The translations under genes and the position numbers were made by a program. Below are positions 28,270-47,213 of a DNA stretch of 64,000 bases, in pieces; position 1 is the stretch's first letter, and the number at the start of each line of letters is the position of its first letter. The notes under the pieces were generated by a model. That model saw nothing but the letters and a program-made list of their open reading frames with translations, did no database searches and was not told the DNA's origin. Location of the stretch: assembly GCF_017876395.1 (NCBI RefSeq), contig NZ_JAGINX010000001.1, positions 930,001-994,000 of the forward strand, in the 5' to 3' direction. The stretch comes from Nesterenkonia lacusekhoensis (GTDB taxonomy: Bacteria; Actinomycetota; Actinomycetes; Actinomycetales; Micrococcaceae).

Positions 28270-29295
28270 TCAGCCGGCGCGCCTAGGGCGGGTGCCCTCC
28301 TTGAAGCGGACCTGGACCGGGCTGTGCTTGAGCAGCGTGCGGTCATAGACGATCTGCGCCGAACGCTTGCGCTCCTGAGACTTGTGGGCGGTGTACTCCT
28401 CGTACTGCTGGCAGACCCATTCCGGATCGCCGTCGGCCAGCAGCCGGCCCTGCTCCACCCAGAGCACACGCGTGCACATCTGCTTGATCGTGCCCAACGA
28501 GTGGGAGACCAGGAACACACAGCCGGCCTGGGCGCGGACCTCGTCCAGGCGCTTCTTGGTCCGGGCCCGGAACTGGGCATCGCCGGTGTTCAGCGCCTCA
28601 TCGATGAGCAGGATGTCGGGATCCACCGCTGTGGCGATGGCGAACTGCAGGCGGGACTGCATACCGGAGGAGTAGGTCTTCAGCGGCATGTCCAGGGCGT
28701 CCTTGAGCCCTGAGATCTCCACGATCAGGTCGTACTTCTCCTCGGCCTGCTTGGGGCTCAGCCCCATGGCCAGACAGCCCAGGCGGATGTTCTCACGGCC
28801 GGAGATGGTCTTGACCAGTGCTGCGTTGACGCCCAGCATGATCGGCGTGGAGGTGGCGTAGACCTCCCCGGAGCTGGGCCGGACCTTGCCGGTCAGCAGC
28901 TTCATCAGGGTGGACTTGCCGGAGCCGTTGGTGCCGATGACTCCCACGGTCTCGCCGTGGTTGACGATGAAGCTCATCGGCTCCAGGGCGGGGACCTCGG
29001 CCCAGCCGGAGCCCAGGACCTTCTTGACCTGGCGGGCGAACCAGTTCGTGGACTTTCGATATTCGGTCTGGGACCGAACCCGGTAGGTCATCGAGGCCTG
29101 ATCGACCACCACGGAGACTTCGTCGGGGTCCACCGTCTCGACGACCGGGACCTGCTCGGTCAGCGGGTTGGAGCCCAGGGTGAGCTCCTCGACGGCCTCG
29201 TCGTCCTCGAAGTCCCATTGGGCGCCGTCGCGCTGAGGGGCTCGGGACTTCGCGTTCCAGTTGACGCGACGGGGGATGTAGCTGGTGGCGCTCAT
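28270..29295 (-). CDS. tagH: Polysaccharide/teichoic acid ABC exporter ATPase (TagH-like)
   Basis: ATP-binding subunit of a surface-polymer exporter, 341 residues. Motifs are GTNGSGKST (Walker A), the unusual signature YSSGMQSRL characteristic of Wzt/TagH ATPases, and ILLIDEALNTGD (Walker B). About 70 extra N-terminal residues precede the ATPase domain. There is no long C-terminal carbohydrate-binding domain, so it is TagH-like and not Wzt-like. The start overlaps the permease stop by 4 nt, and the two form a unit opening the surface-glycopolymer locus. Confidence 0.9.
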   Translation of the reverse strand: MSATSYIPRRVNWNAKSRAPQRDGAQWDFEDDEAVEELTLGSNPLTEQVPVVETVDPDEVSVVVDQASMTYRVRSQTEYRKSTNWFARQVKKVLGSGWAEVPALEPMSFIVNHGETVGVIGTNGSGKSTLMKLLTGKVRPSSGEVYATSTPIMLGVNAALVKTISGRENIRLGCLAMGLSPKQAEEKYDLIVEISGLKDALDMPLKTYSSGMQSRLQFAIATAVDPDILLIDEALNTGDAQFRARTKKRLDEVRAQAGCVFLVSHSLGTIKQMCTRVLWVEQGRLLADGDPEWVCQQYEEYTAHKSQERKRSAQIVYDRTLLKHSPVQVRFKEGTRPRRAG

Positions 29296-30227
29296 CGTTC
29301 CCTCCCGTAGGTCTCTTCACCGTGCCAGAAGATCAGGAAGCCGATGATCAGCGAGCCGGCCGCCCAGGCGCCCAGGACCACCCAGCGGTAGGGGTCGATG
29401 TCACCGTCGTAGAGCCATGCCCCGCGGATGATGTCCAGCACGCAGAAGAGCGGGTTGTGGTGCATGATCGTGGTGATCCAGTCCTGACCGGCATTGGCCC
29501 AACGATCAGGGTGGAAGAACACCGCCGAGGTGTAGAAGAGGATGCGGGTGCCGAAGCTGATCAGGTGCTTGACGTCGTTGTACGCGTTGACCGCGCGGGC
29601 CAGCGCCAGGCTCCACCCGGCCATGACCAGCAGGGCCAGCGCGACGCAGGGGAAGAACAGCAGCCAGTGCCAGTTCAGGTGGATCTCGATGCGCGGTGAG
29701 CCCTCCAGGGGAGTGTCGCCCAGCAGGTAGACCAGGCCGGCCATGACCAGGAACACCGGTACAGAGGAGAACAGCTCCCGGATGGTGCTGGAGAGCACCA
29801 GACAGGCGCGCGGGAAGTTGAAGGCTTGGACGACCTTCTGGTTTCCGGCGATGGCGTTGGAACCTCCGTTCACCGCAGAGGTGAAGAACCGGAACATGAA
29901 CACGCCGATGACCAGGTAGCCGATGAAGTTCGAGATGCCTCGTCCGGTCTCCAGCAGTATGCCGAAGACGAAGAAGTAGGCCGAACCGAACAGGATCGGG
30001 TTGAACACCATCCACAGGCGTCCCAGCGAGTCGTAGCTGTTCGCCGAAGAGACTCGGGAGTGAGAGTCGTAGTAGAGGAAATGGCGGAAGCGCCAGATGT
30101 CACGCAGATACTGGAGCAATCCGGGGCGCGCCCCGACACGGACCAGCGGGGTGCCGTCCAGCTGAACAGTGCGCTGCTGTCCCGCAGTGAATGCGGGGGT
30201 TTCGCGCTCTGTGGTGGGAGCGGCCAT
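29292..30227 (-). CDS. tagG: Polysaccharide/teichoic acid ABC exporter permease (TagG-like)
   Basis: ABC-2 type permease of 311 residues with about six membrane segments, partner of the downstream ATPase. It exports lipid-linked polymer to the outer face of the membrane. FNPILFGSAYFFVFGILL and a late RILFYTSAVFF are typical. Two adjacent ATGs (30230 and 30227) follow GGAAGG; the second has the better spacing (7 nt). It is divergent from the glycosyltransferase at 30424. Confidence 0.9.
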   Translation of the reverse strand: MAAPTTERETPAFTAGQQRTVQLDGTPLVRVGARPGLLQYLRDIWRFRHFLYYDSHSRVSSANSYDSLGRLWMVFNPILFGSAYFFVFGILLETGRGISNFIGYLVIGVFMFRFFTSAVNGGSNAIAGNQKVVQAFNFPRACLVLSSTIRELFSSVPVFLVMAGLVYLLGDTPLEGSPRIEIHLNWHWLLFFPCVALALLVMAGWSLALARAVNAYNDVKHLISFGTRILFYTSAVFFHPDRWANAGQDWITTIMHHNPLFCVLDIIRGAWLYDGDIDPYRWVVLGAWAAGSLIIGFLIFWHGEETYGRER

Positions 30228-30251
30228 CATCAGTCCTTCCAACGTCATCAT

Positions 30252-30279
30252 GCGCCGGGACAAGACACACTCCCGGCGC
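30252..30279 (-). promoter_or_regulatory. Leader hairpin upstream of tagG
   Basis: GCGCCGGGA and TCCCGGCGC are perfect 9-nt arms with a 10-nt loop, 25 nt upstream of the permease start. If the transcript begins further upstream, this would be a leader hairpin or attenuator. Confidence 0.4.
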
Positions 30280-33222: not shown

Positions 33223-33224
33223 AG

Positions 33225-34307
33225 ATGCGCACTCTGGTCTCCTTCCCACGGGCGGGGATGAACCCCTATTCCAGGATGCTCTACCTGCTTCCCAGGGCTG
33301 CGCAATGGAATGTTCGGGAGACCAGCGTCCTTACGCGCTTCGTCGAGCTTTTGGACGAGATCGGCGCAGGTGACGTCATCCACGTCCAGTGGAGCTGGCC
33401 GATCTTTCGGACAGATGCGGACCCTCAGGAGGTGGAGGAGAACCTCAGATCCTTCTGCACCGCTGTGGCGCGCGCCCGCAGCCGTGGTTCCTTCCTCCTC
33501 TGGACGGTGCACAACCTGGTCTCACACGACTCGGAGTTCCTCAGTCTGGAGCGACGGTTCAGCAATTTCATGGGGGCCTACGCCGATCATGTGATTCAGC
33601 TCAACTGCCGCACTGAAGAGTTGGTCCGCGAACACTGTTCCGTGGGCGAGGCAGAGTTCGTCACCATCGAACACTCCACGTATCGCGGGGTCTATCCGCA
33701 GGAGATCACGCGCGATCAGGCACGCGAGTCGCTGGGCATCCGGCCGGATCGTCCTGTGGTCGGTTTCGTGGGTCAGGTCCGGCCGTATAAGGGAATCGAG
33801 CGCCTCCTGGAGGCGGTCGGCTCTCTGAAGACACAGGGCCAGGAGATCACTGTCCTACTGGCTGGAAAGCCCCAGGCAGGGGTGGAGGAGGAGCTGGACA
33901 GCATTGTTGATCGGCAGGGCATCGACTGTGTGCGCCTCTATGAGTTTGTGCCGGACCACGAGCTGCAGACCTGGTTCCGTGCCGCAGATCTCATGGTCTT
34001 CCCCTACGCCAAAGTCTTGAACTCTGGCAGTGCCTATCTCTCTGCAACGTTCAGCACACCGTGCGTGCTGCCTCGTGAACCTCAGTTCGAGACTCTCTTC
34101 GAAGATGAAGACTGGGTGCATCTCTTCGACGAATCAGACCCAGAGGGGCTGAAGCACGCCATCTCCGAGGGGATCGCGGCGGCGTCGGCCTCCCGTGGCG
34201 CGGCCGATGCCTTCGCCCGCAGACATCTGCCGTGGCATATGTCCCACGGCTTCTTGGACCTGCTTCAGAGCCTGCCGGCCGGCGGAGCGGAACGGGGGCA
34301 AGGGTGA
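33225..34307 (+). CDS. Glycosyltransferase family 4-like protein
   Basis: A 360-residue GT-B enzyme. The N-terminal domain contains VIHVQWSW and LWTVHNLVSHD. The C-terminal Rossmann domain begins with VVGFVGQVRPYKGIERLLEAV near 185, typical of GT4. The donor is not predictable. The ATG is 2 bp after the upstream stop, and its stop overlaps the next start, so three glycosyltransferases form one operon. Confidence 0.85.
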   Translation: MRTLVSFPRAGMNPYSRMLYLLPRAAQWNVRETSVLTRFVELLDEIGAGDVIHVQWSWPIFRTDADPQEVEENLRSFCTAVARARSRGSFLLWTVHNLVSHDSEFLSLERRFSNFMGAYADHVIQLNCRTEELVREHCSVGEAEFVTIEHSTYRGVYPQEITRDQARESLGIRPDRPVVGFVGQVRPYKGIERLLEAVGSLKTQGQEITVLLAGKPQAGVEEELDSIVDRQGIDCVRLYEFVPDHELQTWFRAADLMVFPYAKVLNSGSAYLSATFSTPCVLPREPQFETLFEDEDWVHLFDESDPEGLKHAISEGIAAASASRGAADAFARRHLPWHMSHGFLDLLQSLPAGGAERGQG

Positions 34308-36007
34308 TCAGGCCTGATATTTCCGTGCTGCTGATGGCCCAGGAGCAGGACGCCGTATGGCTGGACGAATGCCTGGCCTCCCTCACGGCCCAGCGCGGTG
34401 CCTCACTGGAGGTTCTCGTGGCGGGGCCCGAACCGCTGCTGGACTCTCTGCCGAAGCAGCCCGCCGGTGATTCGGTGAGTGTTCGAGCAATTCGCTCGGA
34501 CTCGGGACCTGCCGGGTGGCGTCAGCTCCAGGAGGAAGCCCAGGGCGAGTTCCTCGCGTTCCTGCGCCCTGCGGATATGGCGGCACCTGCAGGGCTGGTC
34601 ACTCTGCTCGCTGCCGCGCTGCGCCAGGGGGCGGACCTGGTCGTCGGACGCCACCTCGAGCACTCGGCCACCCGCACCGTCCAGCCGGTCGGCCGATGGA
34701 AGCATCTGCAGATCAGCGACCCGCACCACGTGACGGATCTGCGCCGTTCGCCTGGTCTGATCGGTCTGCGGGGTGCGCCCTGTTTTCTTCTCCGAGCGCA
34801 GTGGGCCCGTCAAGTCGGCATCGTGCCCGGTACACACGTGCTGGGAGAGGATCTGGCGCTGTCGGTGAACCTGCTGGAGAGACGTCCCCGCACGCTGCTC
34901 GTGTCCGAAGTCTGTCTGATCCAGCGGGATACCAGGCCGGCTCTTCCGCCGGGAGACAGCGCAGAGTCTCAGGGCTGGAACCGAGACGTCGTGCTGCTCC
35001 TGGAACAGGAGCTGGAGGCGGCGCAGCGTCTCATGCCGCAGGGCGGTCCTGTATGGGCGGCCTTCTGGAGGACCAGTTTGGAAGGACATGTCCGGGGTTT
35101 CCTGACTCCTCTGCTCAGGGCGGATTCCGAGGTGACTGTCGGCTCTGAGGCCCGGAGCCTTCTGCGGCGGCTGCTCGAGCTCAGGGACATCGAGGAATGG
35201 CGGAAGCTTCCAGCCCGACTGCAGTACGCCTACGCGCTGGTGGTGGACGCGGAGGTGGAGCTGCTGAGACTCGTATGGGAAGCCTGGGACAAGCGGCGCA
35301 CCGTTGAGGGTATGAGCGAGCTGCGGCGGCGCGCGGCTCTGCTGGGTAGGCTGTCCCGAGTTCGTCAGCCCTCACTGGAGGCAGCGTCACGTCTGTATCA
35401 CGAGTTGATCCTGGTGCCAGGGGGCCCGAAACAGCTCAGCGACGAGCAGCTCCGAGACCTCTCCCAGCTGCTGCGGCGACGGGAGACCAGCACCCTGTTC
35501 GTGCCCGCAGAATCTGTGGGACGCCATCAGAACGCGCTTCACCTCAGCCTGAGCACGGGCGATCCGGACTACGTCAACCCGCCCCAAAGGCTTCCACACG
35601 TCATGACCTGTTCGGAGGTCGTGCTGAGGGAGGACGGGGGCGTCGACGTGGAGCTCGTCGTTCCCCCGGGAGTCGAAGTCCTTGACAGTGCTGTCTTGCA
35701 GACTGTGGAGAAGGCCTGCAATGTCACTGTGCACGTGGCAGTGCGTACCGAGGGGGAGAGGCATCGGATCCGCATCAGCCCGGAGGAGGTCCGGGAGGAA
35801 GGGCGGTACCTCCTCACCTTGAGCCTGCGCGGATACAAAGCCTCGACCGAGGCTTCTGTCTCGCTGCATCCGGCGGTGGAGCTTCCTGAAGCTTCGGCCT
35901 TCGCGCCGTTAGCTCCCCAGAGGGACGAAGACGGCGGCTTGGAGATCCTTCGGCGTGCACCGCTCGTCCAGAGAGCCGTCAGGGTCTTTCGAGGCTCGCG
36001 GGGCTGA
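34304..36007 (+). CDS. Glycosyltransferase family 2-like protein with long C-terminal region
   Basis: 567 residues from the GTG at 34304, which overlaps the upstream TGA by 4 nt. The first 220 residues look like a GT-A domain (ISVLLMAQEQDAVWLDECLASL), but the usual acidic DXD is degenerate (FLRPADM). Beyond residue 250 there are Leu- and Arg-rich helical segments and a beta-rich C-terminus that I do not recognise. It may be a TagF-like polymerase accessory or an acceptor-binding region. Confidence 0.7.
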   Translation: MIRPDISVLLMAQEQDAVWLDECLASLTAQRGASLEVLVAGPEPLLDSLPKQPAGDSVSVRAIRSDSGPAGWRQLQEEAQGEFLAFLRPADMAAPAGLVTLLAAALRQGADLVVGRHLEHSATRTVQPVGRWKHLQISDPHHVTDLRRSPGLIGLRGAPCFLLRAQWARQVGIVPGTHVLGEDLALSVNLLERRPRTLLVSEVCLIQRDTRPALPPGDSAESQGWNRDVVLLLEQELEAAQRLMPQGGPVWAAFWRTSLEGHVRGFLTPLLRADSEVTVGSEARSLLRRLLELRDIEEWRKLPARLQYAYALVVDAEVELLRLVWEAWDKRRTVEGMSELRRRAALLGRLSRVRQPSLEAASRLYHELILVPGGPKQLSDEQLRDLSQLLRRRETSTLFVPAESVGRHQNALHLSLSTGDPDYVNPPQRLPHVMTCSEVVLREDGGVDVELVVPPGVEVLDSAVLQTVEKACNVTVHVAVRTEGERHRIRISPEEVREEGRYLLTLSLRGYKASTEASVSLHPAVELPEASAFAPLAPQRDEDGGLEILRRAPLVQRAVRVFRGSRG

Positions 36008-36106: not shown

Positions 36107-38182
36107 ATGCCCAACACCACCGCTGCCCCCGCTGTGCAGGGGAAGCTGACCCGTGACCTGCCCGAGCGTCGCTTCCGTCCAGAGCTCCATGGAGTACGCG
36201 GAATGGCGATCCTCGGGGTGGTGCTCTTCCACCTTTTCGGCAACGGCCGGGTCTCAGGCGGGATCGACATCTTCCTGGCAATCTCAGGATTCCTCTTCTG
36301 CGCCATGGTGCTCCGCGAGGTCGCCGAGAGCGGCGGCCGATTTCGGCCGGGTCGATATCTGGCACGGTTGGCTCGAAGGCTCGTCCTGCCCGCAGCGCTG
36401 GTCATCGCGGTCACCGCTGCGGCGGGCTGGCTCCTGCTCCCTGCCACACAGCACGAGCAGCTCTTCCGCGAAGCACGGTCCTCCCTTCTCTACTTCGAGA
36501 ACTGGGAACTGATCAGCTCCCAACTGGCCTACGAGGCTGCGGGGGCTGACACCAGTCCCTTCCAACATTTCTGGTCGCTCTCGGTCCAGGGCCAGTTCTA
36601 TCTGGTCTGGCCTCTGCTGGTGCTGCTCGCCGTATGGATCGCCAAGGCCCTCGGCGCTTCCGCTGTGCGCACCACAGTGGTTCTGATGACAGTTCTGCTG
36701 GGCCTCTCCCTTGCGTACGCCATCCACATGCAGGGCATCGACCAGGAGCGGACCTATTTCATGACCGAAACACGCCTGTGGGAGTTTGCCTTCGGCGCGC
36801 TTCTGGCACTGGTGGGAGTGCGGATCGTTCTGCCTCGCGCTCTTCGGTTCGTGGCCGGGTGGCTCGGGATCGCGCTCATCGTCAGCACCGGCTTCGTCCT
36901 GGACGGGGCCCAGCAGTTCCCGGGGCCGCTGGCGCTGTGGCCCTTGATGGGCCTGGCACTGGTGCTGATCTCAGCAGGATCAGGGCAGACCGAGGACGAG
37001 TCTGCGTTCTCCGCGTCTCGAGTGCTCTCCACGCGGCCGTTCGCATGGGTCGGTGACCTGGCCTATGGGCTGTACCTCTGGCATTGGCCGCTGCTCATCT
37101 TCTACCTCGAGGTCAGGGACTATCCGGCCATCGGGGCCCGTGGTGCCGCGGCAGTCTTCCTGGTCTCTTTGGGTCTGGCTTGGATGACCCATCGTTGGGT
37201 GGAGCAGCCGGTGGCGCGATTCTCTCCCGGTGCGGTGAAGACTCCGCTGCTCTGGGGCGTCAGCACGTTGGGGGCCGGCGCGGCCGCGTTCTCTCTCGTG
37301 CTCTCGTCCACGCATACCCCTCTGCCGGAGGGCTACTCCATGACGGATATGGACCCGGATGACTATCCCGGCGCCGCCGTCACAACCGCCGACGGACCGG
37401 AGACGCCCGAAGGGGTGGACTACCACCCCCAGCCTGAGGCTGTGGCTCAGGATCAGCCGATGTATGTGGGCTGGGGATGTATGCAGGACTTCAGCAATGA
37501 TCCCGGCACAGGGGACGTCTTAGTCTGTGAAGATCCAGAAGCACCCGAGGATCCGGAGGCGACGCTGATGCTGGCCGGAGGCTCCCATGCCGGTATGTGG
37601 CAGCACGCCTTTGCTCTGCTGGCCAAGGAGAACAACTGGGAGCTGCTGATCGCTGACAAGAGTGGCTGCCGCTTCGGGGTGGTCAGCGAGCCGGAGACCG
37701 ATACCTGCCATGAATGGCGGGCGGGATTCCCCGAAGTGGTCGAGGAACGGCAGCCGGACGTAGTCATCACCCCGGGCACGTTGTCACAGCCGGCCGGCTC
37801 TGACGAGCGGATCGCGCCGGACGCTGAGGAACGCTGGAATGAGATCCTCGACGCCGGGTCAGAGCTGCTCCTGCTCCGCGGCACGTCACGTCCGGAGGAG
37901 CGTGTCGGCGACTGTCTGGCGGAGGGAGGCTCGCCCGCAGAATGTGGGCCGGACTATGGTGTCTACGCAGAGACGAACCCGCTGGAAGAGATGGACCTGC
38001 CTGAGGGCATCCACACTGTCGACATGCTCGACCACATCTGTCCCGAGGGATCCTGCCCCGCGGTGATCGGCAACGTGGTGGTCTACCGCGATGCCAGCCA
38101 CCTGACCAACAGCTACGTGGAGACCCTGGCGCCGATTCTGGACGAGAAGCTGCGTGAGGAGATGCCGCACCTCTACCGGTGA
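36107..38182 (+). CDS. Acyltransferase-3 / SGNH O-acetyltransferase (OatA-like), copy 1
   Basis: A 691-residue surface-sugar O-acetylase. Residues 25-400 form the acyltransferase-3 membrane domain with about 10-11 segments, starting RPELHGVRGMAILGVVLFHLF and carrying FQHFWSLSVQGQFYLVWP. The extracytoplasmic SGNH domain (about 455-691) has AGGSHAGMW around the nucleophile and ends with the DxxH motif in YRDASHL. The conserved SVEEQFY stretch is SVQGQFY here and the usual GDSH is GGSH, so activity needs testing. It probably acetylates the polymer of this locus or peptidoglycan. Confidence 0.88.
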   Translation: MPNTTAAPAVQGKLTRDLPERRFRPELHGVRGMAILGVVLFHLFGNGRVSGGIDIFLAISGFLFCAMVLREVAESGGRFRPGRYLARLARRLVLPAALVIAVTAAAGWLLLPATQHEQLFREARSSLLYFENWELISSQLAYEAAGADTSPFQHFWSLSVQGQFYLVWPLLVLLAVWIAKALGASAVRTTVVLMTVLLGLSLAYAIHMQGIDQERTYFMTETRLWEFAFGALLALVGVRIVLPRALRFVAGWLGIALIVSTGFVLDGAQQFPGPLALWPLMGLALVLISAGSGQTEDESAFSASRVLSTRPFAWVGDLAYGLYLWHWPLLIFYLEVRDYPAIGARGAAAVFLVSLGLAWMTHRWVEQPVARFSPGAVKTPLLWGVSTLGAGAAAFSLVLSSTHTPLPEGYSMTDMDPDDYPGAAVTTADGPETPEGVDYHPQPEAVAQDQPMYVGWGCMQDFSNDPGTGDVLVCEDPEAPEDPEATLMLAGGSHAGMWQHAFALLAKENNWELLIADKSGCRFGVVSEPETDTCHEWRAGFPEVVEERQPDVVITPGTLSQPAGSDERIAPDAEERWNEILDAGSELLLLRGTSRPEERVGDCLAEGGSPAECGPDYGVYAETNPLEEMDLPEGIHTVDMLDHICPEGSCPAVIGNVVVYRDASHLTNSYVETLAPILDEKLREEMPHLYR

Positions 38183-38261: not shown

Positions 38262-39578
38262 TCAGCTGTGGTGACGGCTCGGGAGGAGCTTCCTCACGGC
38301 CTGCTTCATACGGCGGGCGGCCCTGCGGTCGACGCGCTGCCGGAGACGTTCATCGGCCAGAGTGCGGTGCGGCAGCGCTGCTTCGAGCGCATCGAGGTCG
38401 ATGGCAGTGCTCGGTAGAGCCGCCTTCTCTGCGATCGCCTGCAGATCGAGGTTCTCCAGATCCGCGGAGGTGACGTCCACACGCGCAGGAGCCCCGCCGG
38501 GCAGCGAGGAGCTGTCCAGAGTGGAGAAGAAGTCCTCGAACTTGAAGTCAGCGCCACCCAGGGGCGCATCGGAGATGTTCAGCCACACCCAGGGCACGCC
38601 GTAGGCCTGCGCCACGATGAGGCCGTGCATGGAGGTCGAGACGCAGGCACGTGCGCCTGCGATCTGAGAGACCACAGTAGTGAGGTCGTCCCGGACGTCG
38701 CAGACGTCGAAGACGGCTTCGTCGATCGTGGAGAAGCGTGTGCGGTGCTTCATGTGCGGGACGAAGGCGATGCGCCGGTCCCCGTCGGGCGAGTTGGGGG
38801 TGAACAGCCGTGGCAGAAGCAGCGCCGGGTCGCCATAGACCTCCGGAACTGTCCATCCGAGCTTCTCCTGCAGCTCATGCCGAGTGAGATGGCCGCGCAC
38901 CGCGTGAACCTCTGTGGTTCTGCGTCGGCGCAGGCCGCTGTCCTCGCTGAGCGGGCGCATCAGACCCGAACCCCAGATATCGACCCGGGGTCGGTTGATC
39001 ATCTGGACGATGGAACCCACGAGAGCCGAGGCGCGGCCCACCGCGGGGATGGGTGAGTCCTTGGTGGACCGCACGTTCACCACATGTCTGCCGGTCATCG
39101 TCGAGACGATCCACGGACCGATCGCGTCTCCGAAGTTGGCCTTCCGGTCCCACCAGAAGCCCCGGATGATGTCCTCGTCCGGGGTCTCTCCGTGCTCCAC
39201 CTGGGAGACGGTCTGCATCCGGGAACAGATGAACGACACCCATCCCGCCACGGTGGTCAGCGCGGCACGTCTGGTGGCGCGGCGGCCGCTGAGGACCTCG
39301 AGCTCGTGATGCTCCTTCGGCGCGGCCTTCAGCAGAGCATCGGTGACCAGCACGTTGCGCAGCACGCGGCGATTCTCGTCGCCGGATCCGTGGCAGGTCA
39401 GGCGGAGGCCAGCCGGGATCTGGGTGGCTCGAACGGTGACCTCGCCGAAAGCGGTCGGGAACTCCCAGCTGAGCGAGTCACCTGAGGTGGTCAGTGACAC
39501 CTGCGTGTCCTGTGGGAAGGGGGACCGGTCTCCTACGCTGTCGGTGAGCAGATCGGTCAGAGCGGTATGGCGCGGCAT
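38262..39578 (-). CDS. Polysaccharide pyruvyl transferase family protein
   Basis: A 438-residue protein whose middle and C-terminal parts match the pyruvyl transferase family (CsaB/GumL type): WWDRKANFGDAIGPWIVS near 145, VDIWGSGL near 205, VHAVRGHLTRHEL, VYGDPALLLPRLF and STSMHGLIVAQAYGVP near 335. These enzymes add a pyruvate ketal from phosphoenolpyruvate to a sugar. The first 130 residues form an extra domain I do not recognise. It is last in a five-gene minus-strand operon and paralogous to the N-terminal half of the fusion at 43576-45906. Confidence 0.82.
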   Translation of the reverse strand: MPRHTALTDLLTDSVGDRSPFPQDTQVSLTTSGDSLSWEFPTAFGEVTVRATQIPAGLRLTCHGSGDENRRVLRNVLVTDALLKAAPKEHHELEVLSGRRATRRAALTTVAGWVSFICSRMQTVSQVEHGETPDEDIIRGFWWDRKANFGDAIGPWIVSTMTGRHVVNVRSTKDSPIPAVGRASALVGSIVQMINRPRVDIWGSGLMRPLSEDSGLRRRRTTEVHAVRGHLTRHELQEKLGWTVPEVYGDPALLLPRLFTPNSPDGDRRIAFVPHMKHRTRFSTIDEAVFDVCDVRDDLTTVVSQIAGARACVSTSMHGLIVAQAYGVPWVWLNISDAPLGGADFKFEDFFSTLDSSSLPGGAPARVDVTSADLENLDLQAIAEKAALPSTAIDLDALEAALPHRTLADERLRQRVDRRAARRMKQAVRKLLPSRHHS

Positions 39579-39610
39579 GGGGAAGCTTTCCGTGGGGTGG
39601 GAGACGGGTC

Positions 39611-40915
39611 TCAGGTCAGGGAATAGGTAGCCAGCGTTTCAAGGTGTCCGGCATCGTCGTCGCCGCTGAGAGTCAGCTGTCCAATGCGGTGACCGGGAGC
39701 CGGCTCGATCACAGTCTCGAAGACGCCCGCGGAGGCACCGTCGTTCTCGGCCTCAGCGGTCTGCGTCTCCACGGTGGTCGAATATCCGCCGGCTTGGTCA
39801 GGGGAGAAACCCGCACGCTTCATGAACGCCTGCGGGGCGGGTGCCTCCGGATCGGTCTGCTCCAGTGCCACAGACACAGTGATCTTCGCACTCTCGCTGT
39901 AGGAATCCGTCCTCCCGAAGAGCAGGAATGCACCGTGAAGCTGCGGTTCGAAGCTTGCGCCCTGCGTCCCCAGCGGCGCCCCCTCAACGTCTGCGATGCT
40001 CACAGCGTTCTCTTGAGGGCACAGATGGAGTCGACGGAACACATGGGGGTAGTACTTCTCCAGAAGGGACGGATCTGCCTCCGGCTTCTTCTCGGCCTCC
40101 TTGATCATCTTGGAGAAGAAGGGTGTCTCGTCCTCGGAGAGCGTGCTGTCCTGGCTGACGTGGCGCGATTGGAAGAACCCGGGTTCCCTCGAGTCCAGAA
40201 CCGTGGGGAACTGGGTGTCGAGATAGAGATGGCCCTTCTTGGGCGGGCTGGTTTGGAGCCCGAGGAAGTCTCCGTCCGGCGTCTTCTTGTGGATCGATAC
40301 GAGCCCCGCCGCGGCTTTCGGGAAGTAGCGATACCAGGGTTTGATGTAGCTCTGGGAAGTGCGCAGAGCCGAATACGAGTGGGGGAACGAGATGCGCCAG
40401 CCCACGTGCTCCGGATCCACATAGGGGATCATCCGCTCGAAGAAGTTGATCGGCAGGACGTCGTCGTCATCCAGACGGTAGATGGCGAAGAGCCTGTCTT
40501 CCGGCAGGCGCCCTTTGAGCACCCGGTTGAGCACCTTCTTGTTCGGAGCACTGGGCGCGACGAAGGAAGGCGCCACGTTGATGTGCAGGAAGGGGTGGCG
40601 CTGGGCCGCCTCTTCCAGAGCCCGGCGATATGTGGAGGGCAGCGAATCGGAGATGTGCACGATGTGCACCAGGTCGCAGTCCTCAGCCGCTTCCAGGGAT
40701 TCGGCCAGCTGGGGAAGGCTCTCGTCGATGAAGAGCTCAGTGCGAGGAGCCATGCGATCGTCCGAGTACAGCCAGCGGGTGTACTCCTCCTCCGAGAAGC
40801 GGCTGTCCTTCCGGGTGGCCTTGAAGCTGCCCGAGCTGTAGGCGTGGACGCTGAATCGCGTGTGGCCGATAAAGAGCCTGCGCATGCGGTGGCGTGTCTC
40901 CTCCGGGATAGTCAT
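39611..40915 (-). CDS. Putative glycosyltransferase (rhamnosyltransferase-like)
   Basis: A 434-residue protein with LFIGHTRFSVH near the N-terminus, an EEYTRWLYSDDRMAPRTELF segment, and the acidic cluster YRLDDDDVLP near residue 155 that looks like a metal-dependent GT-A centre. The family resembles a putative rhamnosyltransferase group, but that is from memory and the donor is not established. The last 130 residues are beta-rich. Its ATG overlaps the upstream stop by 4 nt. It shares the same block order with the C-terminal half of the fusion protein. Confidence 0.65.
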   Translation of the reverse strand: MTIPEETRHRMRRLFIGHTRFSVHAYSSGSFKATRKDSRFSEEEYTRWLYSDDRMAPRTELFIDESLPQLAESLEAAEDCDLVHIVHISDSLPSTYRRALEEAAQRHPFLHINVAPSFVAPSAPNKKVLNRVLKGRLPEDRLFAIYRLDDDDVLPINFFERMIPYVDPEHVGWRISFPHSYSALRTSQSYIKPWYRYFPKAAAGLVSIHKKTPDGDFLGLQTSPPKKGHLYLDTQFPTVLDSREPGFFQSRHVSQDSTLSEDETPFFSKMIKEAEKKPEADPSLLEKYYPHVFRRLHLCPQENAVSIADVEGAPLGTQGASFEPQLHGAFLLFGRTDSYSESAKITVSVALEQTDPEAPAPQAFMKRAGFSPDQAGGYSTTVETQTAEAENDGASAGVFETVIEPAPGHRIGQLTLSGDDDAGHLETLATYSLT

Positions 40916-42516
40916 GATCTGAGCCTGAGGCGCAGCTGGGCCTCGTAGAGGTTTCGCGGCAGCACCTGGCTGTCCAGGGCTTCGGTCGCGGAGTGAAGGA
41001 TACCGCGGAACTCCGGTTCCTGCTGCGAGATCTTATCGGTGCCCCGGATCCCCACCATGGCGCTGTACGGTGCGTGTTCTTCCAGCCGCAGCGCATAGGA
41101 GCGATTGTTTCGGACCTCGATGTTCCAGTGGCAGAATCGGGCGCCCCAGTGGGGGCCGGCCTTCTTCGCTCCGCCGACCACGCCGCGGTTGGTGATGCGG
41201 ATATCGGTGCGCACGTTGTCGAAGGGGATCCTGCGGTGAGAGTCGAAGGTCCCTACCATCTCCCCGTCGGCCCACGCATTCCCAGAGGAATAGCCTTCCA
41301 CGTTCAATCCGTGGGTCAGGGAGCCCTTCGGGAGCTTGGTGGTGGGGGATTCGATGGCGAAGGTCCGGACCAAGTTGTCGTGGGACTGCTCACGGCAGAT
41401 ATAGCTGTGGTGATGTGCTCTGCCCCGGACAGTGGTCTCTTGGAGCGTCACGCCTTTGGTGGAGGTGAGACCGAAAGCGTTGTCGCTGTTCTCCACGGTC
41501 ACCCGCCGAGCCCAGCAGTTCAATGCGGCCTGGAAGTGGGGTCCGTTGTAGCCCAGATCCTGATTATGCGGCTGAGGATCCACCACCGGCATGTGCAGGG
41601 TGACGTCCTCGAGACCGGACTCTTCGATCCGAGGGCCCAGGGTCAGGAAGCGCGGATTCCATTCAGGTCGCAGATCGAACCGGAGCGGTTGGGCCAGGGT
41701 CACGGTTTCGGCCCCTGTCTGAGCGATCTGCACCGGCCAGCGCAGTGCGGAGTAATTGGGCTGACGGTGCAGTGAGGATGCCCCGGTCTGCCAGTCGTAG
41801 CTGGACTCGGGAAGATCCCCGCAGAGGTGCCGCAGTAGGCTGTGGTCTGCGATGTTGTCCACAACCAGTAGGACATGATCACCTACGGAGAAGTCTCCGG
41901 GGTTCTCCACCCGGACGCGGCTGGCTCCGCGTGGTGCCGCAGCAGCCGCGCTGAGTATAGCGTTCCCCCGCCACCCTTCATTGGATCCCCAGGCCCAGTC
42001 CTGTTCCTCGAGGCCGTGTCGCACAGCCTGAGGCAGGAACCAGATCAGTCCTCCGGCCCACGACCATTCGCCGCTGCGCGAGGTGCGGTAGCAGTGCTCG
42101 AGCGGCCGGCGGAAGTGGAGCCGAGTGTTCTCCTGGCCTTCTCCGCTGAGCAGCACACGAGAGTGCTGGACCCAGACGACACCGTCGAGGGCATAATCCC
42201 CGGCAGGGATTCGAACGGTGCCGCCACCGGCAGCACCGGCGGCTTCGATCGCTGAATTGAAGGCTGCGGTGTCGTCAGTATGCCCGTCCGCCGTTGCCCC
42301 ATAGGCCCGCACGTCGAAGACCGGAGAGGACTCTTCCTGTCCTTCGGGTGTGGAATTCGGAAGCGGTCTCTCTCCACGGTGGTAGCCGGCATACGAGACG
42401 TTGGGCACCTGGGGGTGTGTATCAGGACGGCGGCGGTACTCGCGCCAGAGACGGGCCGAACGGTCTCTGTGGAACAGTCGACGGACTGCTCGGGCGCCTT
42501 GGGAGACTAGCGTCAT
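40912..42516 (-). CDS. Pectate-lyase-like right-handed beta-helix protein
   Basis: A 534-residue protein with the Pectate_lyase_3 signature FDVRAYGATADGHTDDTAAF (about residues 66-85) and GGGTVRIPAGDY, followed by irregular beta-helix coils with HHHSYICREQ in the middle. Family members act on polysaccharides as lyases, hydrolases or epimerases. There is no signal peptide, only a basic N-terminus with RRLFHRDRSARLWREYRRR, so export by a standard route is not apparent. It is translationally coupled to the genes on both sides. Confidence 0.78.
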   Translation of the reverse strand: MTLVSQGARAVRRLFHRDRSARLWREYRRRPDTHPQVPNVSYAGYHRGERPLPNSTPEGQEESSPVFDVRAYGATADGHTDDTAAFNSAIEAAGAAGGGTVRIPAGDYALDGVVWVQHSRVLLSGEGQENTRLHFRRPLEHCYRTSRSGEWSWAGGLIWFLPQAVRHGLEEQDWAWGSNEGWRGNAILSAAAAAPRGASRVRVENPGDFSVGDHVLLVVDNIADHSLLRHLCGDLPESSYDWQTGASSLHRQPNYSALRWPVQIAQTGAETVTLAQPLRFDLRPEWNPRFLTLGPRIEESGLEDVTLHMPVVDPQPHNQDLGYNGPHFQAALNCWARRVTVENSDNAFGLTSTKGVTLQETTVRGRAHHHSYICREQSHDNLVRTFAIESPTTKLPKGSLTHGLNVEGYSSGNAWADGEMVGTFDSHRRIPFDNVRTDIRITNRGVVGGAKKAGPHWGARFCHWNIEVRNNRSYALRLEEHAPYSAMVGIRGTDKISQQEPEFRGILHSATEALDSQVLPRNLYEAQLRLRLRS

Positions 42517-42517
42517 C

Positions 42518-43561
42518 TCAAGCTCCTGAGCGGCTGATCATGCCCTGGACCAGAGAGTCGGCCACAGGACGGCCGCGACCGATCCAGGGGTAGTGGTGTA
42601 CGGCGATGCTGGCGCGGGTGTTCACGTGCAGCACGTGTGCGCCGTCAGTGCTCTCCAGGTCGGGGACCAGGAGGTCGACTGCTGCGGCGCGGCATCCGGG
42701 GACCGCCCAGCAGCTTTCGATGGCCAGTTCCCGAAGGGCCGACCCCAGTCCGGCGGTGACATCGACGGTGACGCCGCCGAGGCGCATATTGACTCCCGCG
42801 GAGAACTGGTAGATCTCACCGGTGCGGCTGACCTCATCTGCGATCCCGCCGTGCTCCTCGCTTGGGGTCAGAAGATCGGGCGCGAAACGGCCGAAGAGCG
42901 GGTGAAGGCTGCGTGCCTCTTCTGCGGCTCGGAAGATCTGATCAGTGGTCCGCTTCCCGTCGCCGACGCCGAACAGCGGCAGCCGGATGAGCGCACTGAC
43001 GACTTTCTCTCCGACGACGAACGCGCGCAGGTCGATACCGGAGCACTGTTCCTCGATGACGACTTGGTCGCTGGCATCCGGGGTCCCCAGCTGACGTGCC
43101 TGGAGGGCCAGGTTCCAGGCAGCTCCCACATCTGACTCGGCCGTGACCCCCAGGGAGACTCCGGCACCGGACTGGCCGGAGGCTGGTTTGACCACCGCAG
43201 GCCGGTTCAGCGACTTCAGGTATGACTGAGCCTCCTCGCCTTGTTGTGGGGAGAAAGCTCGTCCCCGGGGAACTGCGATCCCCGCGGACTTGAGGAAGCG
43301 CTTGCCCAGGTCGATGTCTGAGGCGCTGAGGCGGGCTTGTTCGCTGGCCAGCGAGGTCTGGTTGATCTCGAAGCCGCCGACGGTGCGGCTTCCACGCCCC
43401 AAGACGTAGAGGTTTCCCTGAACGTTCTGGATGCTGAGCCGCTGGCGCCGGGCTGCTCGACTCAGCAGCGCGCTGGGCGCGTCGGCCCGACGCCCGCCGT
43501 AATCGGTGGGCGAGACGCCGGAGAGCTGTTCCGCGATGTATGTCCTGACCTCGGGATCCAT
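42518..43561 (-). CDS. ATP-grasp ligase-like protein
   Basis: A 347-residue protein with an ATP-grasp fold resembling the ATP-binding part of cyanophycin synthetase or GshF: RPAVVKPASGQSGAGVSLG (about residues 134-152), VVIEEQCSGIDLRAFVVG (about 177-194), and C-terminal VLHVNTRASIAVHHYP. The first 60 residues are not recognised. ATP-grasp enzymes join a carboxylate to an amine or thiol through an acyl phosphate, so here it could attach an amino acid or small acid to a nucleotide sugar or polymer. That role is inferred from context only. Its stop is one base before the beta-helix start. Confidence 0.72.
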   Translation of the reverse strand: MDPEVRTYIAEQLSGVSPTDYGGRRADAPSALLSRAARRQRLSIQNVQGNLYVLGRGSRTVGGFEINQTSLASEQARLSASDIDLGKRFLKSAGIAVPRGRAFSPQQGEEAQSYLKSLNRPAVVKPASGQSGAGVSLGVTAESDVGAAWNLALQARQLGTPDASDQVVIEEQCSGIDLRAFVVGEKVVSALIRLPLFGVGDGKRTTDQIFRAAEEARSLHPLFGRFAPDLLTPSEEHGGIADEVSRTGEIYQFSAGVNMRLGGVTVDVTAGLGSALRELAIESCWAVPGCRAAAVDLLVPDLESTDGAHVLHVNTRASIAVHHYPWIGRGRPVADSLVQGMISRSGA

Positions 43562-43575
43562 GGCGAGACCTCGGC

Positions 43576-45906
43576 TCAGGCGCGTCGCGGAGGCAACGGG
43601 TATCCGACGATCTCGTCGAGCTCGATGGTCTCCGCCTTGTCCGGGACCAGGCGGACAGAGGTCACGTTGACCCCGGCAGGGGGCTCGATGGGAAGGACAT
43701 GCCCGAATCCGCTGGACTTGTTCGGCATATAGCGCCAGTAGGTGCCGTCGCGTTCGGAGTAGCGCAGCTTGGCCGCAGACAGGAACTTCTGGTGGACCTC
43801 ACGCTGGCTTTCAGGGATGTCGAGGGTCAGGCGCACCTGGATCTGGTTGGGCTTCAACGACTTCCCGCCTGCCGGCACCACCTGCAGACTCAGCGGGCCC
43901 TGCTGGTCCCAGGACAAGTCCAATCCGGGGCGCTCCAGAGTGCATGCTGCCTGCAGCTGGACGTCTCGGCCCTCGGGGCCGGGGGTCAGAGTGGTCTTGT
44001 CCGCCACCAGCGGGAAGAGCTCAGCCACTTTGTCGAGGTCGGCAGGGCCCTCGCTGAGAATGCGTCCCATGGCCTCCGGGTAGAACGGACGGACCTCGCC
44101 TTCGACGGTGCTGTCCTGGCTTTCATGCCTGATATGGAAGAAAGCGGGTTCGCGGGAGTCGATGATCGTCGGGTTGTACTGGTCGAGGATCGTGTGTTTG
44201 GGGGCTTTGAGGTTCAGGATCTCACCGTCGGTGTCCTGGGCGCAGATGGCCATGGGCCCGAATGCGCTCTTGGGGTAGTAGTAGTCCCGGGCGAACGTGA
44301 ACTCGCCGTCCATGCGGATGGCCGAGATGCCGCTTCCCAAGGAGACCCACCAACCGATGTGCTTAGGCGTGACGTAGGGGGCCATCTGAGAGAAGTAGTT
44401 GACCGAGAGCAGGTCGTCGTCGTCCAACCGGTAGACACCGAAGGGTGCGTCGGTGACGTTGTGCTTCTGCAGCGCGCGGCGGACCAGAGTCTTGGAGGGC
44501 GTGGAGCTCACTGCGTTCTTCGTCTCGTTGAGCTCCAGGAAGTCGTACTTCTGAGCCGCGTCGATCAGCTGCTGCTTGTGCTCCTGCGGGAGCGAGGGGG
44601 AGAACGAGACGAAGTGGACGACGTCGTGGTGCTCAGCCGCCTTGGCCAGCTGGGGGAGGGAGAGCTGAGTGAAGATCTCGGTGCGGGGTGCGAGGCGGGC
44701 ATCGCTGTACAGCCAGTCGGTGTATTCCTTCTCGCTGAAGCCGGCGCCTCGGCTGCTGTCACGGGTGGCGTTGAAGTAGCCGGACCCGTGCTGGTGGACG
44801 CTGAAACGGGTGTGACCGATGAAGAGACGGCGCTCAGTCACCGCTGGGTTCGTGGCCGCGGGCTCTGCCGTCTTCTGCGCGGGTCCCTGCGATGTGACCT
44901 TCCGGGCGATGCGTCGGCCGACGGAGAGTCCGCGGCGGATGGTCCCGGAGAGGGTAGACATGGAGAAGGCCTTTCGGTCTGGAGCTGCGGTGCCGGCCGG
45001 CGCTGGGGGCTCAGTTCGGCCCGCTGCAGCGGCGTCTTGCGCCGCCGAGTATAACAACGGGGACTCGGCTGAATCCGGCGCCACGGCGGGGGCGTCGGAG
45101 TCCGTCTCCTCCCACAGGTGTGCAGGAAACGCGGCCAGCAGAGCGTCGGCGTCGAACTCTGGGGCGGGCAGCGGGCCCAGTCGCTGCGCCTCCTCGAGAT
45201 CCTTGGCGACTTCGGCCTGCGGACGACCGGTCCCTTCGAGATAGTCCCGGTACTTGAACTCAGGCTCGACGTCAGAGGCGACCGGGCGGGCAGGTACGCC
45301 ATAGGCCTCAGCCACCACCGTTCCGTGCAGGGACGAGCCGATGACGAACCTGCTGTGCGCCAGAGTGGCCAGGCACTGTTCCAACGGGGTGCGCGGGTTC
45401 AGCACATTGGGCAGATGCGCCACAGCGGGGTAGTCGTGGAAGTTTGGCACGATGGTGACATCGGAATGGAACAACGGGTCGCCGAGTTCCTTACGGGGGA
45501 AGAGCTGCGCACAGAGCAGGCCCGGGTCACCGTAGATCTCAGGCACCTGCAGGCCTTGCTCCTGCAGGAAGGCTCGCGTCCGCGGACCACGGACGGCGTG
45601 GACCTGAGTTCCCTCCAGGCGATACCGCTTCTCAAGAGCCTTGCCGTTCACCCCGCTGCCCCAGACATGTGCTCCGGGACGGGAGAAATGCAGGATCGAT
45701 CCCACAGAGAGCAGGTCGTGTGCAGCGTCCACATCCGAGTCCCAGGTGATGCCTCGGGAGATGAGGATCCTGCGCACCAGCTCTGGGCCCAAGACGTCGC
45801 CGAAGTTGTTCAGCGGAGTCTTCTCCGGGAAGGCAGGGTCGGTCGGGATGACGCGCTCTGGGTTGAAATGGATGACGCGCACAGGACCCAGGGCGAGGGA
45901 CTGCAC
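43576..45906 (-). CDS. Fusion of polysaccharide pyruvyl transferase and glycosyltransferase
   Basis: A 776-residue protein. The N-terminal pyruvyl transferase domain (about 10-250) shows NNFGDVLGPELVRR, AHVWGSGV, VHAVRGPRT, EIYGDPGLL and SSLHGTVVAEAYGVP. An Ala/Pro-rich linker (about 265-370) follows. The C-terminal domain (about 370-776) has LFIGHTRFSVH, EKEYTDWLYSDARLAPRTE and YRLDDDDLL, like the gene at 39611. GTG 45906 is chosen because AGGAG lies 6 nt upstream; an ATG at 45993 gives a poorly supported N-terminus. An internal ATG at 44961 could yield the glycosyltransferase alone. It is first in the five-gene operon. Confidence 0.8.
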   Translation of the reverse strand: MQSLALGPVRVIHFNPERVIPTDPAFPEKTPLNNFGDVLGPELVRRILISRGITWDSDVDAAHDLLSVGSILHFSRPGAHVWGSGVNGKALEKRYRLEGTQVHAVRGPRTRAFLQEQGLQVPEIYGDPGLLCAQLFPRKELGDPLFHSDVTIVPNFHDYPAVAHLPNVLNPRTPLEQCLATLAHSRFVIGSSLHGTVVAEAYGVPARPVASDVEPEFKYRDYLEGTGRPQAEVAKDLEEAQRLGPLPAPEFDADALLAAFPAHLWEETDSDAPAVAPDSAESPLLYSAAQDAAAAGRTEPPAPAGTAAPDRKAFSMSTLSGTIRRGLSVGRRIARKVTSQGPAQKTAEPAATNPAVTERRLFIGHTRFSVHQHGSGYFNATRDSSRGAGFSEKEYTDWLYSDARLAPRTEIFTQLSLPQLAKAAEHHDVVHFVSFSPSLPQEHKQQLIDAAQKYDFLELNETKNAVSSTPSKTLVRRALQKHNVTDAPFGVYRLDDDDLLSVNYFSQMAPYVTPKHIGWWVSLGSGISAIRMDGEFTFARDYYYPKSAFGPMAICAQDTDGEILNLKAPKHTILDQYNPTIIDSREPAFFHIRHESQDSTVEGEVRPFYPEAMGRILSEGPADLDKVAELFPLVADKTTLTPGPEGRDVQLQAACTLERPGLDLSWDQQGPLSLQVVPAGGKSLKPNQIQVRLTLDIPESQREVHQKFLSAAKLRYSERDGTYWRYMPNKSSGFGHVLPIEPPAGVNVTSVRLVPDKAETIELDEIVGYPLPPRRA

Positions 45907-46064
45907 AGGCGGCTCCTGTCTGGTCGAAGGGTGAGGAGGCTCAGCCGGACAAGGGGCGTGCGAGCCGTGTCCCGAGTCTAATGCTGCAGGCATCCGGCAC
46001 TGCAGTCCGGTCCTGACGCCGTGTCCGTACCGGGCCCGCGGGAAGGCCCTAATAGACTGGCGGC

Positions 46065-47213
46065 ATGAAGAGGATCATGCCGATCTATGGCACCCGGCCC
46101 GAGGCGATCAAGATGGCCCCGATCGTCAAAGCGCTCCAGTCCAGTGAGCACTTCGACTGTGAGGTGACTGTCACCGGTCAGCACAGGGAGATGCTCGATC
46201 AGGTCAATGAGCTCTTCGGGATCGTGCCTGATCATGATCTCAACATCATCCAGCCCCGCCAGACCCTCAACGGGGTGCTGACCCGCACGGTCAACGGCCT
46301 TGATGAGCTCTTCACCGCGCAGAAGCCTGATGCGGTGATCGTCCAGGGTGATACCACTACGACCACCGCTGGGGCGATGGCGGCCTTCTACAGCGGTATT
46401 CCGGTGATCCATGCCGAGGCGGGTCTGCGCTCGTTCGATCTGTTCTCTCCGTTCCCGGAGGAGGCCAATCGGAAGATGACCTCGCAGATCACTTCGCTGC
46501 ATCTGGCTCCGACCTCGCAGTCGAAGGCGAATCTGCTGCGGGAGTCGCTGCCGGAGCAGGACATCGTGGTCACCGGCAATACGGTCATCGATGCTCTGCT
46601 GGAGGTTGCTCAGAAGCAGGTGCCCTTCTCGGATCCGCAGCTGGAGGAGGCTGCGGCCTCGGGCCGTGAGGTGCTGTTGGTGACTACCCATCGTCGGGAG
46701 AATCAGGGTGCGGCGATGGAGGGTGTGGGCCGGGCGTTGGCTCGGTTGGCTGATGCGTATCCGCAGAAGCTGATCGTGCTGCCGGCGCATCGGAATCCGG
46801 TGGTGCGTGAGGCGATCCTGCCGGCCCTGGCTGGGCACAGCAATGTGATCGTCACTGAGCCGTTGCCGTATGGGGAGTTCACGCGGTTGATGAATCTGGC
46901 CACGGTGGTGCTGACTGATTCTGGTGGGGTCCAGGAGGAGGCGCCGTCGTTGGGTAAGCCGGTGTTGGTGATGCGGGAGAACACGGAGCGTCCTGAGGCG
47001 GTTGATGCCGGTACGGTGCGGCTGATCGGTACTGATGAGGAGCGTGTGGTTCAGGAGGTCTGCAATCTGTTCGACTCTGCTGAGTCGTATCGGGCGATGG
47101 CCAATGCGGTGAATCCGTACGGGGACGGTCAGGCGGCTGCCCGGACTGTCGCGGCTGTTGAGAAGCTCTTCGATCTGGGGCCCCGCCTGGACGACTTCGA
47201 CCCGCAGGTGTGA
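46065..47213 (+). CDS. wecB: UDP-N-acetylglucosamine 2-epimerase (non-hydrolysing)
   Basis: Interconverts UDP-GlcNAc and UDP-ManNAc. The 382-residue protein has GTRPEAIKMAPIV at the N-terminus, QGDTTTTTAG, HAEAGLRSFD, TTHRREN and SGGVQEEAPSLGKPVL, the complete family pattern. With wecC at 55002 it would supply UDP-ManNAcA. The 3' two-thirds of the gene has more T- and G-ending codons than the neighbours, hinting at a different origin or recombination. smc starts 10 bp after the stop. Confidence 0.95.
   Translation: MKRIMPIYGTRPEAIKMAPIVKALQSSEHFDCEVTVTGQHREMLDQVNELFGIVPDHDLNIIQPRQTLNGVLTRTVNGLDELFTAQKPDAVIVQGDTTTTTAGAMAAFYSGIPVIHAEAGLRSFDLFSPFPEEANRKMTSQITSLHLAPTSQSKANLLRESLPEQDIVVTGNTVIDALLEVAQKQVPFSDPQLEEAAASGREVLLVTTHRRENQGAAMEGVGRALARLADAYPQKLIVLPAHRNPVVREAILPALAGHSNVIVTEPLPYGEFTRLMNLATVVLTDSGGVQEEAPSLGKPVLVMRENTERPEAVDAGTVRLIGTDEERVVQEVCNLFDSAESYRAMANAVNPYGDGQAAARTVAAVEKLFDLGPRLDDFDPQV

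Follow-up and report, generated by a model that had tools for sequence, protein, structure and literature searches.

Modified-polysaccharide loci of the CA_C2195 type contain an ATP-grasp aminoacyl ligase and glycosyltransferases, and several of them also carry an exporter of the O-antigen/teichoic type and a pyruvyltransferase (Das et al., 2014; PMC4000134). This work concerns a run of five minus-strand genes in a Nesterenkonia genome, which encodes an ATP-grasp ligase, two putative glycosyltransferases, two pyruvyltransferase domains and a parallel beta-helix protein. In the available text of their description, CA_C2195-type loci centre on a peptidase-like protein, and neither a beta-helix enzyme, nor a pair of PF11316 glycosyltransferases, nor a locus fixed throughout a genus is mentioned. 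An ATP-grasp enzyme within a surface-polysaccharide locus is also known from Campylobacter jejuni, in which Cj1438C, a protein with a TupA-like ATP-grasp domain, amidates the glucuronic acid (GlcA) of the HS:2 capsule before further chain growth (PMC11800379). According to the available part of that report, Cj1438C has a TupA-like fold fused to a GT2 domain and serves a Gram-negative capsule, whereas the Nesterenkonia enzyme is a separate protein of the CphA/GshAB-like type. The window, i.e., the whole stretch of DNA analysed here, comprises 64 kb (C1:930001-994000) of the genome G000 (2.74 Mb, 2 contigs).

Nesterenkonia belongs to the family Micrococcaceae, as does Micrococcus. The teichuronic acid of Micrococcus luteus is a wall polymer that contains N-acetylmannosaminuronic acid (ManNAcA) and is synthesised at the membrane with UDP-ManNAcA as precursor (PMC3005890). 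The window holds both wecB and wecC, the gene pair by which a ManNAcA-type teichuronic acid locus is recognised; pyruvate, an amide and a beta-helix enzyme go unmentioned in the available text on the M. luteus polymer. In Promicromonospora sp. VKM Ac-1028, an actinobacterium, a teichuronic-type wall polymer carries 2,3-pyruvyl-GlcA, while the available part of the source names no gene locus and mentions no amide or beta-helix component (PMC6801904). The teichuronopeptide of Bacillus halodurans (tupA) is described as an acidic wall polymer of uronic acid and peptide that is tied to alkaliphily (PMC8153356). Unlike that system, as far as its available description goes, the island around the five genes contains no tupA-like gene, and a peptide part is here only putative. 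Finally, BT3328 is reported as a surface lyase encoded in a utilisation locus (PMC9067506), in contrast to the Nesterenkonia beta-helix protein, which has no signal peptide, is encoded in a biosynthetic run and scores far below the cut-off of the BT3328 family.

The five-gene set is not a chance grouping, and what a sequence-only reading of the window had taken for one operon consists of two parts, a resident ATP-grasp gene and a cassette that comes and goes. The explanation that we favour, with about even confidence, is that Nesterenkonia has a chromosomally fixed island for a wall glycopolymer, whose decoration is the part played by the five genes. This polymer would be made in the cytoplasm, exported by an ABC transporter and, in this genome, of the ManNAcA type.

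The five-gene run and its conservation in Nesterenkonia

The five predicted open reading frames (ORFs) all lie on the minus strand and are separated by 14, 1, -4 and 32 bp in reading order, a tight packing already described in the sequence-only reading, with whose family names Pfam agrees. The first gene (43576-45993, 805 aa) encodes a polysaccharide pyruvyltransferase domain (PvyTf; residues 102-241) joined by an Ala/Pro-rich linker to a Rhamno_transf domain (PF11316; residues 392-629); its first ATG is at 45993, 87 bp further out than the 45906 given in the sequence-only reading. It is followed by a CphA/GshAB-like ATP-grasp ligase (42518-43561, 347 aa) that matches ATP-grasp models (GARS_A, 31.8 bits, cut-off 27), by a parallel beta-helix protein (40912-42516, 534 aa) with a PF12708 match (44.1 bits, cut-off 27) and a DUF4955-like C-terminus, by a separate PF11316 protein (39611-40915, 434 aa) and by a PvyTf of family PF04230 (38262-39578, 438 aa). 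The PF11316 matches reach 63.8 and 53.5 bits against a cut-off of 23, which refines the earlier label of glycosyltransferase, correct as to the type of enzyme, to a putative rhamnosyltransferase family (hereafter RhaT). The RhaT part of the fusion, which is its C-terminal half, and the separate RhaT are paralogues with 45% identity over 292 residues, and a DDDD motif is found in each. The PF04230 matches (40.2 and 41.4 bits) exceed the gathering cut-off of 25.3 and cover profile positions 124-279 and 91-279 only. CsaB, which pyruvylates N-acetylmannosamine (ManNAc) in the anchoring of SLH proteins, was considered and rejected as an identity for these domains (TIGR03609, 13.6 and 14.4 bits, cut-off 213), and no SLH protein was matched in the G000 genome by a search whose control was positive in 4/14.

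The island that holds the five genes is limited by an ABC exporter (28270-30263) on one side and by wecB-smc (46065 onwards) on the other. It was read in 27/30 Nesterenkonia genomes, G007, G016 and G025 being left out for want of an exporter or smc match, for a completeness of 62% and for short, separate contigs. In G004, G024 and G026 the exporter and smc lie on different contigs and one flank was seen, and the zeros recorded for the exporter in G015, G021, G020 and G013 are ends of the stretches read, the exporter being present on the same contig. In a profile search (E 1e-30 or better) the beta-helix gene is found in 9/30 genomes. In all nine carriers the same run includes ATP-grasp and a pair of PF11316 genes, and eight have PvyTf as well; conserved co-occurrence, put forward as a check in the sequence-only reading, is thus borne out within the genus, and the families do not lie scattered among its genomes. 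Among islands that lack the beta-helix gene, two RhaT genes are found in 0/18 and a single one in 1/18 (G018). The order RhaT1, ATP-grasp, beta-helix, RhaT2 is shared by the window, G010, G015, G021, G027 and G012, and the order ATP-grasp, RhaT1, beta-helix, RhaT2, PvyTf by G006, G009 and G026. The PvyTf-RhaT fusion, which the sequence-only reading had counted as part of the set, is unique to the window genome among the nine carriers, the other eight having the RhaT part alone.

An ATP-grasp relative lies beside the TarG-like exporter and/or wecB-smc in 27/27 genomes read, whether or not the other four genes are there. In G001 it occupies the opposite side of the exporter, and in G028 the island is minimal, with little beyond wecB, ATP-grasp and exporter. 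A tree of 56 ATP-grasp copies (12 rows of <330 residues left out; two sequences present twice, as island and as elsewhere) needs 4 changes of the label "island", against a shuffled mean of 19.0 (0/500 as low). On this tree the window copy is separated from the island copies of G006, G009 and G026, which belong to another clade, though all four genomes carry the beta-helix cassette. The resident ATP-grasp gene that the cassette (RhaT, beta-helix, RhaT and PvyTf) has joined is thus not always the same, and the five genes do not hold as a single operon. PvyTf genes lie near ATP-grasp genes at 18/34 places, of which 13/34 are the island itself (by reading), leaving 5/21 outside; this comparison covers 95 ATP-grasp places among the matches listed and 28 of 54 TupA places, and its expectation of 1.8 is that of places scattered uniformly in a Poisson model, with kinship corrected for neither there nor in the accompanying Fisher value.

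The extension of this co-occurrence to the Micrococcales, which the sequence-only reading had proposed to look for, fails. At E 0.001 the profile search matches 66/396 genomes of the order, nearly all over a short N-terminal stretch, and outside Nesterenkonia there is just one full-length relative of the beta-helix protein (G410, 5.6e-153), which has an export-like start and neighbours of uronate catabolism; the next best match spans 89 profile positions. A scan of the genome contigs with two short peptide patterns gave at least 6 loci, all in Nesterenkonia. In the plasmid collection, 9 records have weak or partial matches, one of which, in a Streptomyces plasmid, is limited to a C-terminal stretch at a site where no gene is listed, and 0 records of the phage collection match the protein.

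The ATP-grasp ligase and the beta-helix protein

The nearest relatives of the window ATP-grasp enzyme are the G domains of cyanophycin synthetases and GshAB, and comparison of its AlphaFold model, of moderate confidence (predicted local distance difference test, pLDDT, 63.8), agrees with this kinship. The cyanophycin synthetase CphA1 itself was rejected as an identity, NF010623 and TIGR02068 scoring 112 and 108 bits against cut-offs of 877 and 850 and the Mur-ligase-like half being absent (347 aa against 871 in the model). Judged by these comparisons, the enzyme is not a cyanophycin synthetase and its acceptor should differ. In TeCphA1, Glu450 is described as a Mg ligand and Arg458 as contacting the substrate carboxylate, and Asp431, Arg323 and Asn394 are also pointed out (PMC9427784). 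The window copy keeps the last three as D296, R193 and N258, respectively, together with K125 and N314 of the ATP/Mg site. Among 29 island copies Asp296 is kept in 29, Arg193 in 28 and K125 in 25. Residue 312 is Asp in 18 of these copies, Glu in 5, His in 3, Gly in 2 and Gln in 1. The island copies thus appear to have diverged on their own path at the metal site. Of the chemistries that this putative ligase may perform, amide-type ligation, put forward in the sequence-only reading, is supported as the likeliest.

ATP-grasp genes of the CphA-like type are strongly multiplied in Nesterenkonia (2 to 15 matches per genome, 30/30 genomes); outside the genus, a match is found in 1/6 other genomes of the family and 7/22 of the order. 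Further ATP-grasp or amidotransferase-like families occur in the islands, i.e., TupA-like proteins in 6/27, PF14397 in 7/27 and Asn-synthase-like proteins in 9/27, as counted by BLAST with one or two reference copies each. No TupA-like ATP-grasp (PF14305) is found in the island of the window, and one lies elsewhere in the genome (G000:C1:576136). PF00733 is over cut-off in 5/5 Asn-synthase-like proteins scanned with Pfam, and these proteins might form uronamides. Mostly of ~570-580 aa, they share the island with ATP-grasp in G001, G003-G006, G009, G014, G023 and G026. Tandem ATP-grasp pairs were observed at loci L017, L019-L024, L026 and L027, where one copy has E-x-N (or E-x-S) or a close variant, and the second is shorter, lacks the Lys motif and has G-I-D where the metal residues would stand; by their motifs, they look like pairs of an active and an inactive protein.

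Copies of the beta-helix protein are 55-63% identical among those aligned within the genus. NF058554, the model of the hyaluronan endo-lyase BT3328 (PL29), matches the L052 copy over nearly the whole domain (4.6e-22), runs nearly end to end in 2/4 Nesterenkonia copies scanned and covers residues 19-371 of the window copy. From these matches the protein is classed as a distant relative of BT3328/PL29 and not as a member of the family. Each of the 7 copies scanned has a DUF4955 match with an E value of 0.01 or better, the window copy lying just under the cut-off, and a phmmer search of the C-terminal half against the PDB gave chance-level matches only. The lack of a signal peptide was correctly read from the start: the best 15-residue hydropathy within the first 70 residues is 0.36, whereas a relative whose start is Tat-like reaches 2.25, and none of 7 Nesterenkonia copies examined has a hydrophobic N-terminus. 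The relative of G410 (46% identical) has a Tat-like signal and is encoded beside uxaC, a dehydrogenase of the Mannitol_dh family, an FGGY kinase and a GH3 protein. Two relatives from plasmids of Alteromonas and Asticcacaulis (25-27% identical) have signal-like N-termini (by eye) and lie near a sulfatase and GH43, and near a TonB-dependent receptor and a sialate O-acetylesterase, respectively. Of these three distant relatives with export-like starts, two (G410 and Alteromonas) sit in degradation loci. Across 10 aligned sequences 52 positions are invariant, including H317, N324, H370, H379, H402, D425, H427 and N434, and F-D-S-H (424-427) may resemble the D-P-H motif of alginate epimerases. The simplest reading of these alignments would be a uronan-acting family that was relocated to the cytoplasm with its active site kept.

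The proposed polymer and competing explanations

Polymers exported by ABC transporters of the TarGH/Wzm-Wzt pathway are completed inside the cell, so that pyruvylation, amidation and the beta-helix reaction can all be cytoplasmic. The exporter adjoining the five genes is a pair of this type, composed of a TarG/Wzm-like permease (29292-30263, minus; PF01061), with TarG as its best solved relative (6jbh, phmmer 1.9e-07) and homologues at E 1e-40 or better in 29/30 Nesterenkonia genomes, and a TagH-like ATPase (28270-29295, minus; PF00005). Both Pfam matches are over cut-off, and the TagH equivalog models are not reached (NF010065 and NF010066, 175.8 and 168.7 bits, cut-offs 538 and 320). wecB (46065-47213, plus) encodes a non-hydrolysing UDP-GlcNAc 2-epimerase with the product UDP-ManNAc (TIGR00236, 462 bits, cut-off 210), and wecC (55002-56252, minus) a UDP-ManNAc dehydrogenase with the product UDP-ManNAcA (NF008286, 588 bits, cut-off 459). 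As both are in the window, UDP-ManNAcA can be made. A plus-strand ORF called over 55077-58484 is false, the real gene there being wecC. The setting of a surface glycopolymer, suggested by the sequence-only reading, is supported by the TarG-like exporter and these two genes. Nucleotide-sugar dehydrogenases are encoded in the island of 3/27 genomes; in both of those scanned, TIGR03026 is over cut-off and the ManNAc-specific model is not.

In the wall-glycopolymer explanation, the polymer would be assembled in the cytoplasm and would probably include a uronic acid, which in this genome may be ManNAcA. The PF11316 enzymes would attach sugars and the PvyTf domains pyruvate ketals, and the ATP-grasp enzyme would link an amino compound to a carboxylate (of the uronate or the pyruvate) as an amide. 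The beta-helix enzyme, a signal-less relative of secreted PL29-like uronan lyases, would act in the cytoplasm on uronates of the unexported chain, and the polymer would then leave through the adjoining TarGH/Wzm-like transporter. For the beta-helix reaction, C5-epimerisation seems the most probable, followed by lyase trimming and, last, by a non-catalytic role.

Several observations weigh against this explanation. The presence of an ATP-grasp enzyme together with a pyruvyltransferase in surface-polysaccharide loci has already been noted (PMC4000134), and the matches listed from the open-licence PMC literature contain no wall-polymer chemistry of Nesterenkonia. The association with PvyTf is not strict: G012 carries the cassette without it, and it occurs in 2/18 islands without the beta-helix gene (BLAST), to which Pfam adds two places, one of them under cut-off. 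On the side of the sugar, wecC sits 8 kb beyond the island proper, and wecB is found in 15/27 islands and in just 5/9 beta-helix carriers, so that ManNAc is not common to all. Moreover, a TagF/TagB-like gene at G000:C1:598301, ~370 kb away, has two TagD-like ORFs nearby (by eye), and the TarG-like exporter may thus serve a teichoic acid. The beta-helix protein stays far under the NF058554 cut-off of 1100 (65 bits for the window copy, 53 to 78 for 5 Nesterenkonia copies), and the G410 relative has no match to this model at E 1e-5, with short matches to two galacturonate-polymer hydrolase models only. Modelling, which had been proposed for both folds, gave a picture of moderate confidence for the ATP-grasp enzyme and not for the beta-helix protein, whose AlphaFold model reaches a pLDDT of 44.6 (7-row alignment). 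In the window ATP-grasp enzyme the Mg ligand Glu450 of TeCphA1 is replaced by H312 and Arg458 by A320, and E-x-N is kept in 3/29 island copies (D-x-D in 14/29) against 20/27 copies elsewhere, the latter including the two sequences counted both as island and as elsewhere. With such an altered metal motif the enzyme might have low activity or catalyse a different reaction.

It is possible, though doubtful, that the beta-helix protein is a lyase and not an epimerase, and that it serves in the cytoplasm to trim or recycle polymer that was misassembled, as an intracellular counterpart of the alginate lyase AlgL of the alginate operon. Both reactions begin with the abstraction of H5, and sequence alone therefore cannot separate a lyase from an epimerase. 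The closest characterised family is, in its available description, an endo-lyase (BT3328/PL29; PMC9067506), and relatives with export-like starts are located in degradation loci, as would suit a lyase. However, an intracellular lyase would attack the product before export, and the overlap of 4 bp between the beta-helix and RhaT genes speaks for a synthetic step.

Not very likely is an island that makes a glycerol-phosphate teichoic acid, the sugars of which would be decorated by the five genes without any uronic acid. This would account for the TarG-like exporter, for the TagF/TagB-like gene with its TagD-like neighbours and for the absence of wecB from 4/9 carrier islands. Yet the TagF/TagB- and TagD-like genes are remote from the island, no gene of the WecG/TagA linkage-enzyme family was found in the G000 genome (PF03808, no match; control positive in 7/14), wecC is over cut-off in the window and nucleotide-sugar dehydrogenases occur in some islands, and a uronan-lyase-like protein would need a uronate.

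That the island ATP-grasp protein has lost catalysis and serves in binding or as a scaffold is quite unlikely. The H-x-N of the window copy, the rarity of E-x-N in the islands and the shorter, degenerate tandem copies without a Lys motif elsewhere in the genus point in this direction; against it stand the near-constant Asp296, Arg193 and K125, the Asp at the Glu position in 18/29 copies, which can bind Mg, and the retention of a relative in all 27 islands read. Very unlikely, finally, is an ATP-grasp enzyme whose product is a storage polymer or a small metabolite of peptide-like nature unrelated to the glycan, its position being historical, since its kinship by sequence and fold to cyanophycin synthetases and GshAB and the many matches per genome are set against its presence in 27/27 islands, the clustering of the island copies on the tree and the lack of a Mur-ligase half such as CphA has.

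The wall-glycopolymer explanation can also be put in a fuller form, which we hold to be unlikely. Nesterenkonia would then have an undescribed wall polymer. A domesticated uronan lyase would epimerise its uronates inside the cell; these would also be pyruvylated, and a genus-specific ATP-grasp family with a metal motif of its own would join them to amino acids through amide bonds. This would be a second, independent teichuronopeptide-like wall in which CphA-like ligases replace TupA-like ones. Each of the chemistries is already known singly; what appears to be new is the gene set, the fixation across the genus of an ATP-grasp gene whose metal motif is altered, and the presence of a PL29-like enzyme without a signal among biosynthetic genes. 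Among the matches listed from titles and abstracts of open-licence PMC papers, none joins Nesterenkonia to these enzymes. If the wall-glycopolymer explanation is true, a family of degradative beta-helix enzymes, here lacking an export signal, was recruited for the synthesis of a polymer. A TarGH-type wall-polymer locus would then include, throughout a genus, fixed ATP-grasp ligases whose metal motif is altered, and wall amidation would be linked with pyruvylation in the Micrococcaceae. It would also become testable whether acidic wall polymers with amide linkages are of use in alkaline or salty habitats to bacteria other than Bacillus.

Neighbouring genes and further observations

Between the exporter and the five genes, the island of the window contains four plus-strand genes. 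They encode a large GT2 glycosyltransferase (30424-33222; PF00535, 79.4 bits), a GT4 glycosyltransferase (33123-34307; PF00534, 52.2 bits) whose true start is probably downstream of the listed GTG, a weak GT2-like protein (34232-36007; PF00535, 12.5 bits, under cut-off) with homologues of 31-33% identity in the island of 3 genomes, and a SucT-like acyltransferase-3/SGNH O-acyltransferase (36107-38182; PF01757 and PF19040 over cut-off; NF058601, 374.6 bits, cut-off 1275). In the island of G018 (C3:651735-655902 and onwards), AT3-SGNH acyltransferases are encoded by several genes, and the beginning of smc occurs a second time as a partial copy.

A second cluster of the same genome (G000:C1:555000-600000; L035, L036 and L121) holds a CphA-like and a TupA-like ATP-grasp gene and two PvyTf genes flanking a GT8; it also includes transposase-like ORFs (by eye), and the TagF/TagB-like gene and TagD-like ORFs lie further along. 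Beyond wecC, two large minus-strand paralogues of the window (58488-61178 and 61493-63955), each with GT1-like and GT2 domains, flank an ORF of 105 aa, and relatives of these large proteins adjoin ATP-grasp genes in G002. At the other end of the window, the start of a plus-strand ORF (20177-21406) resembles, by eye, an IS110-type transposase.

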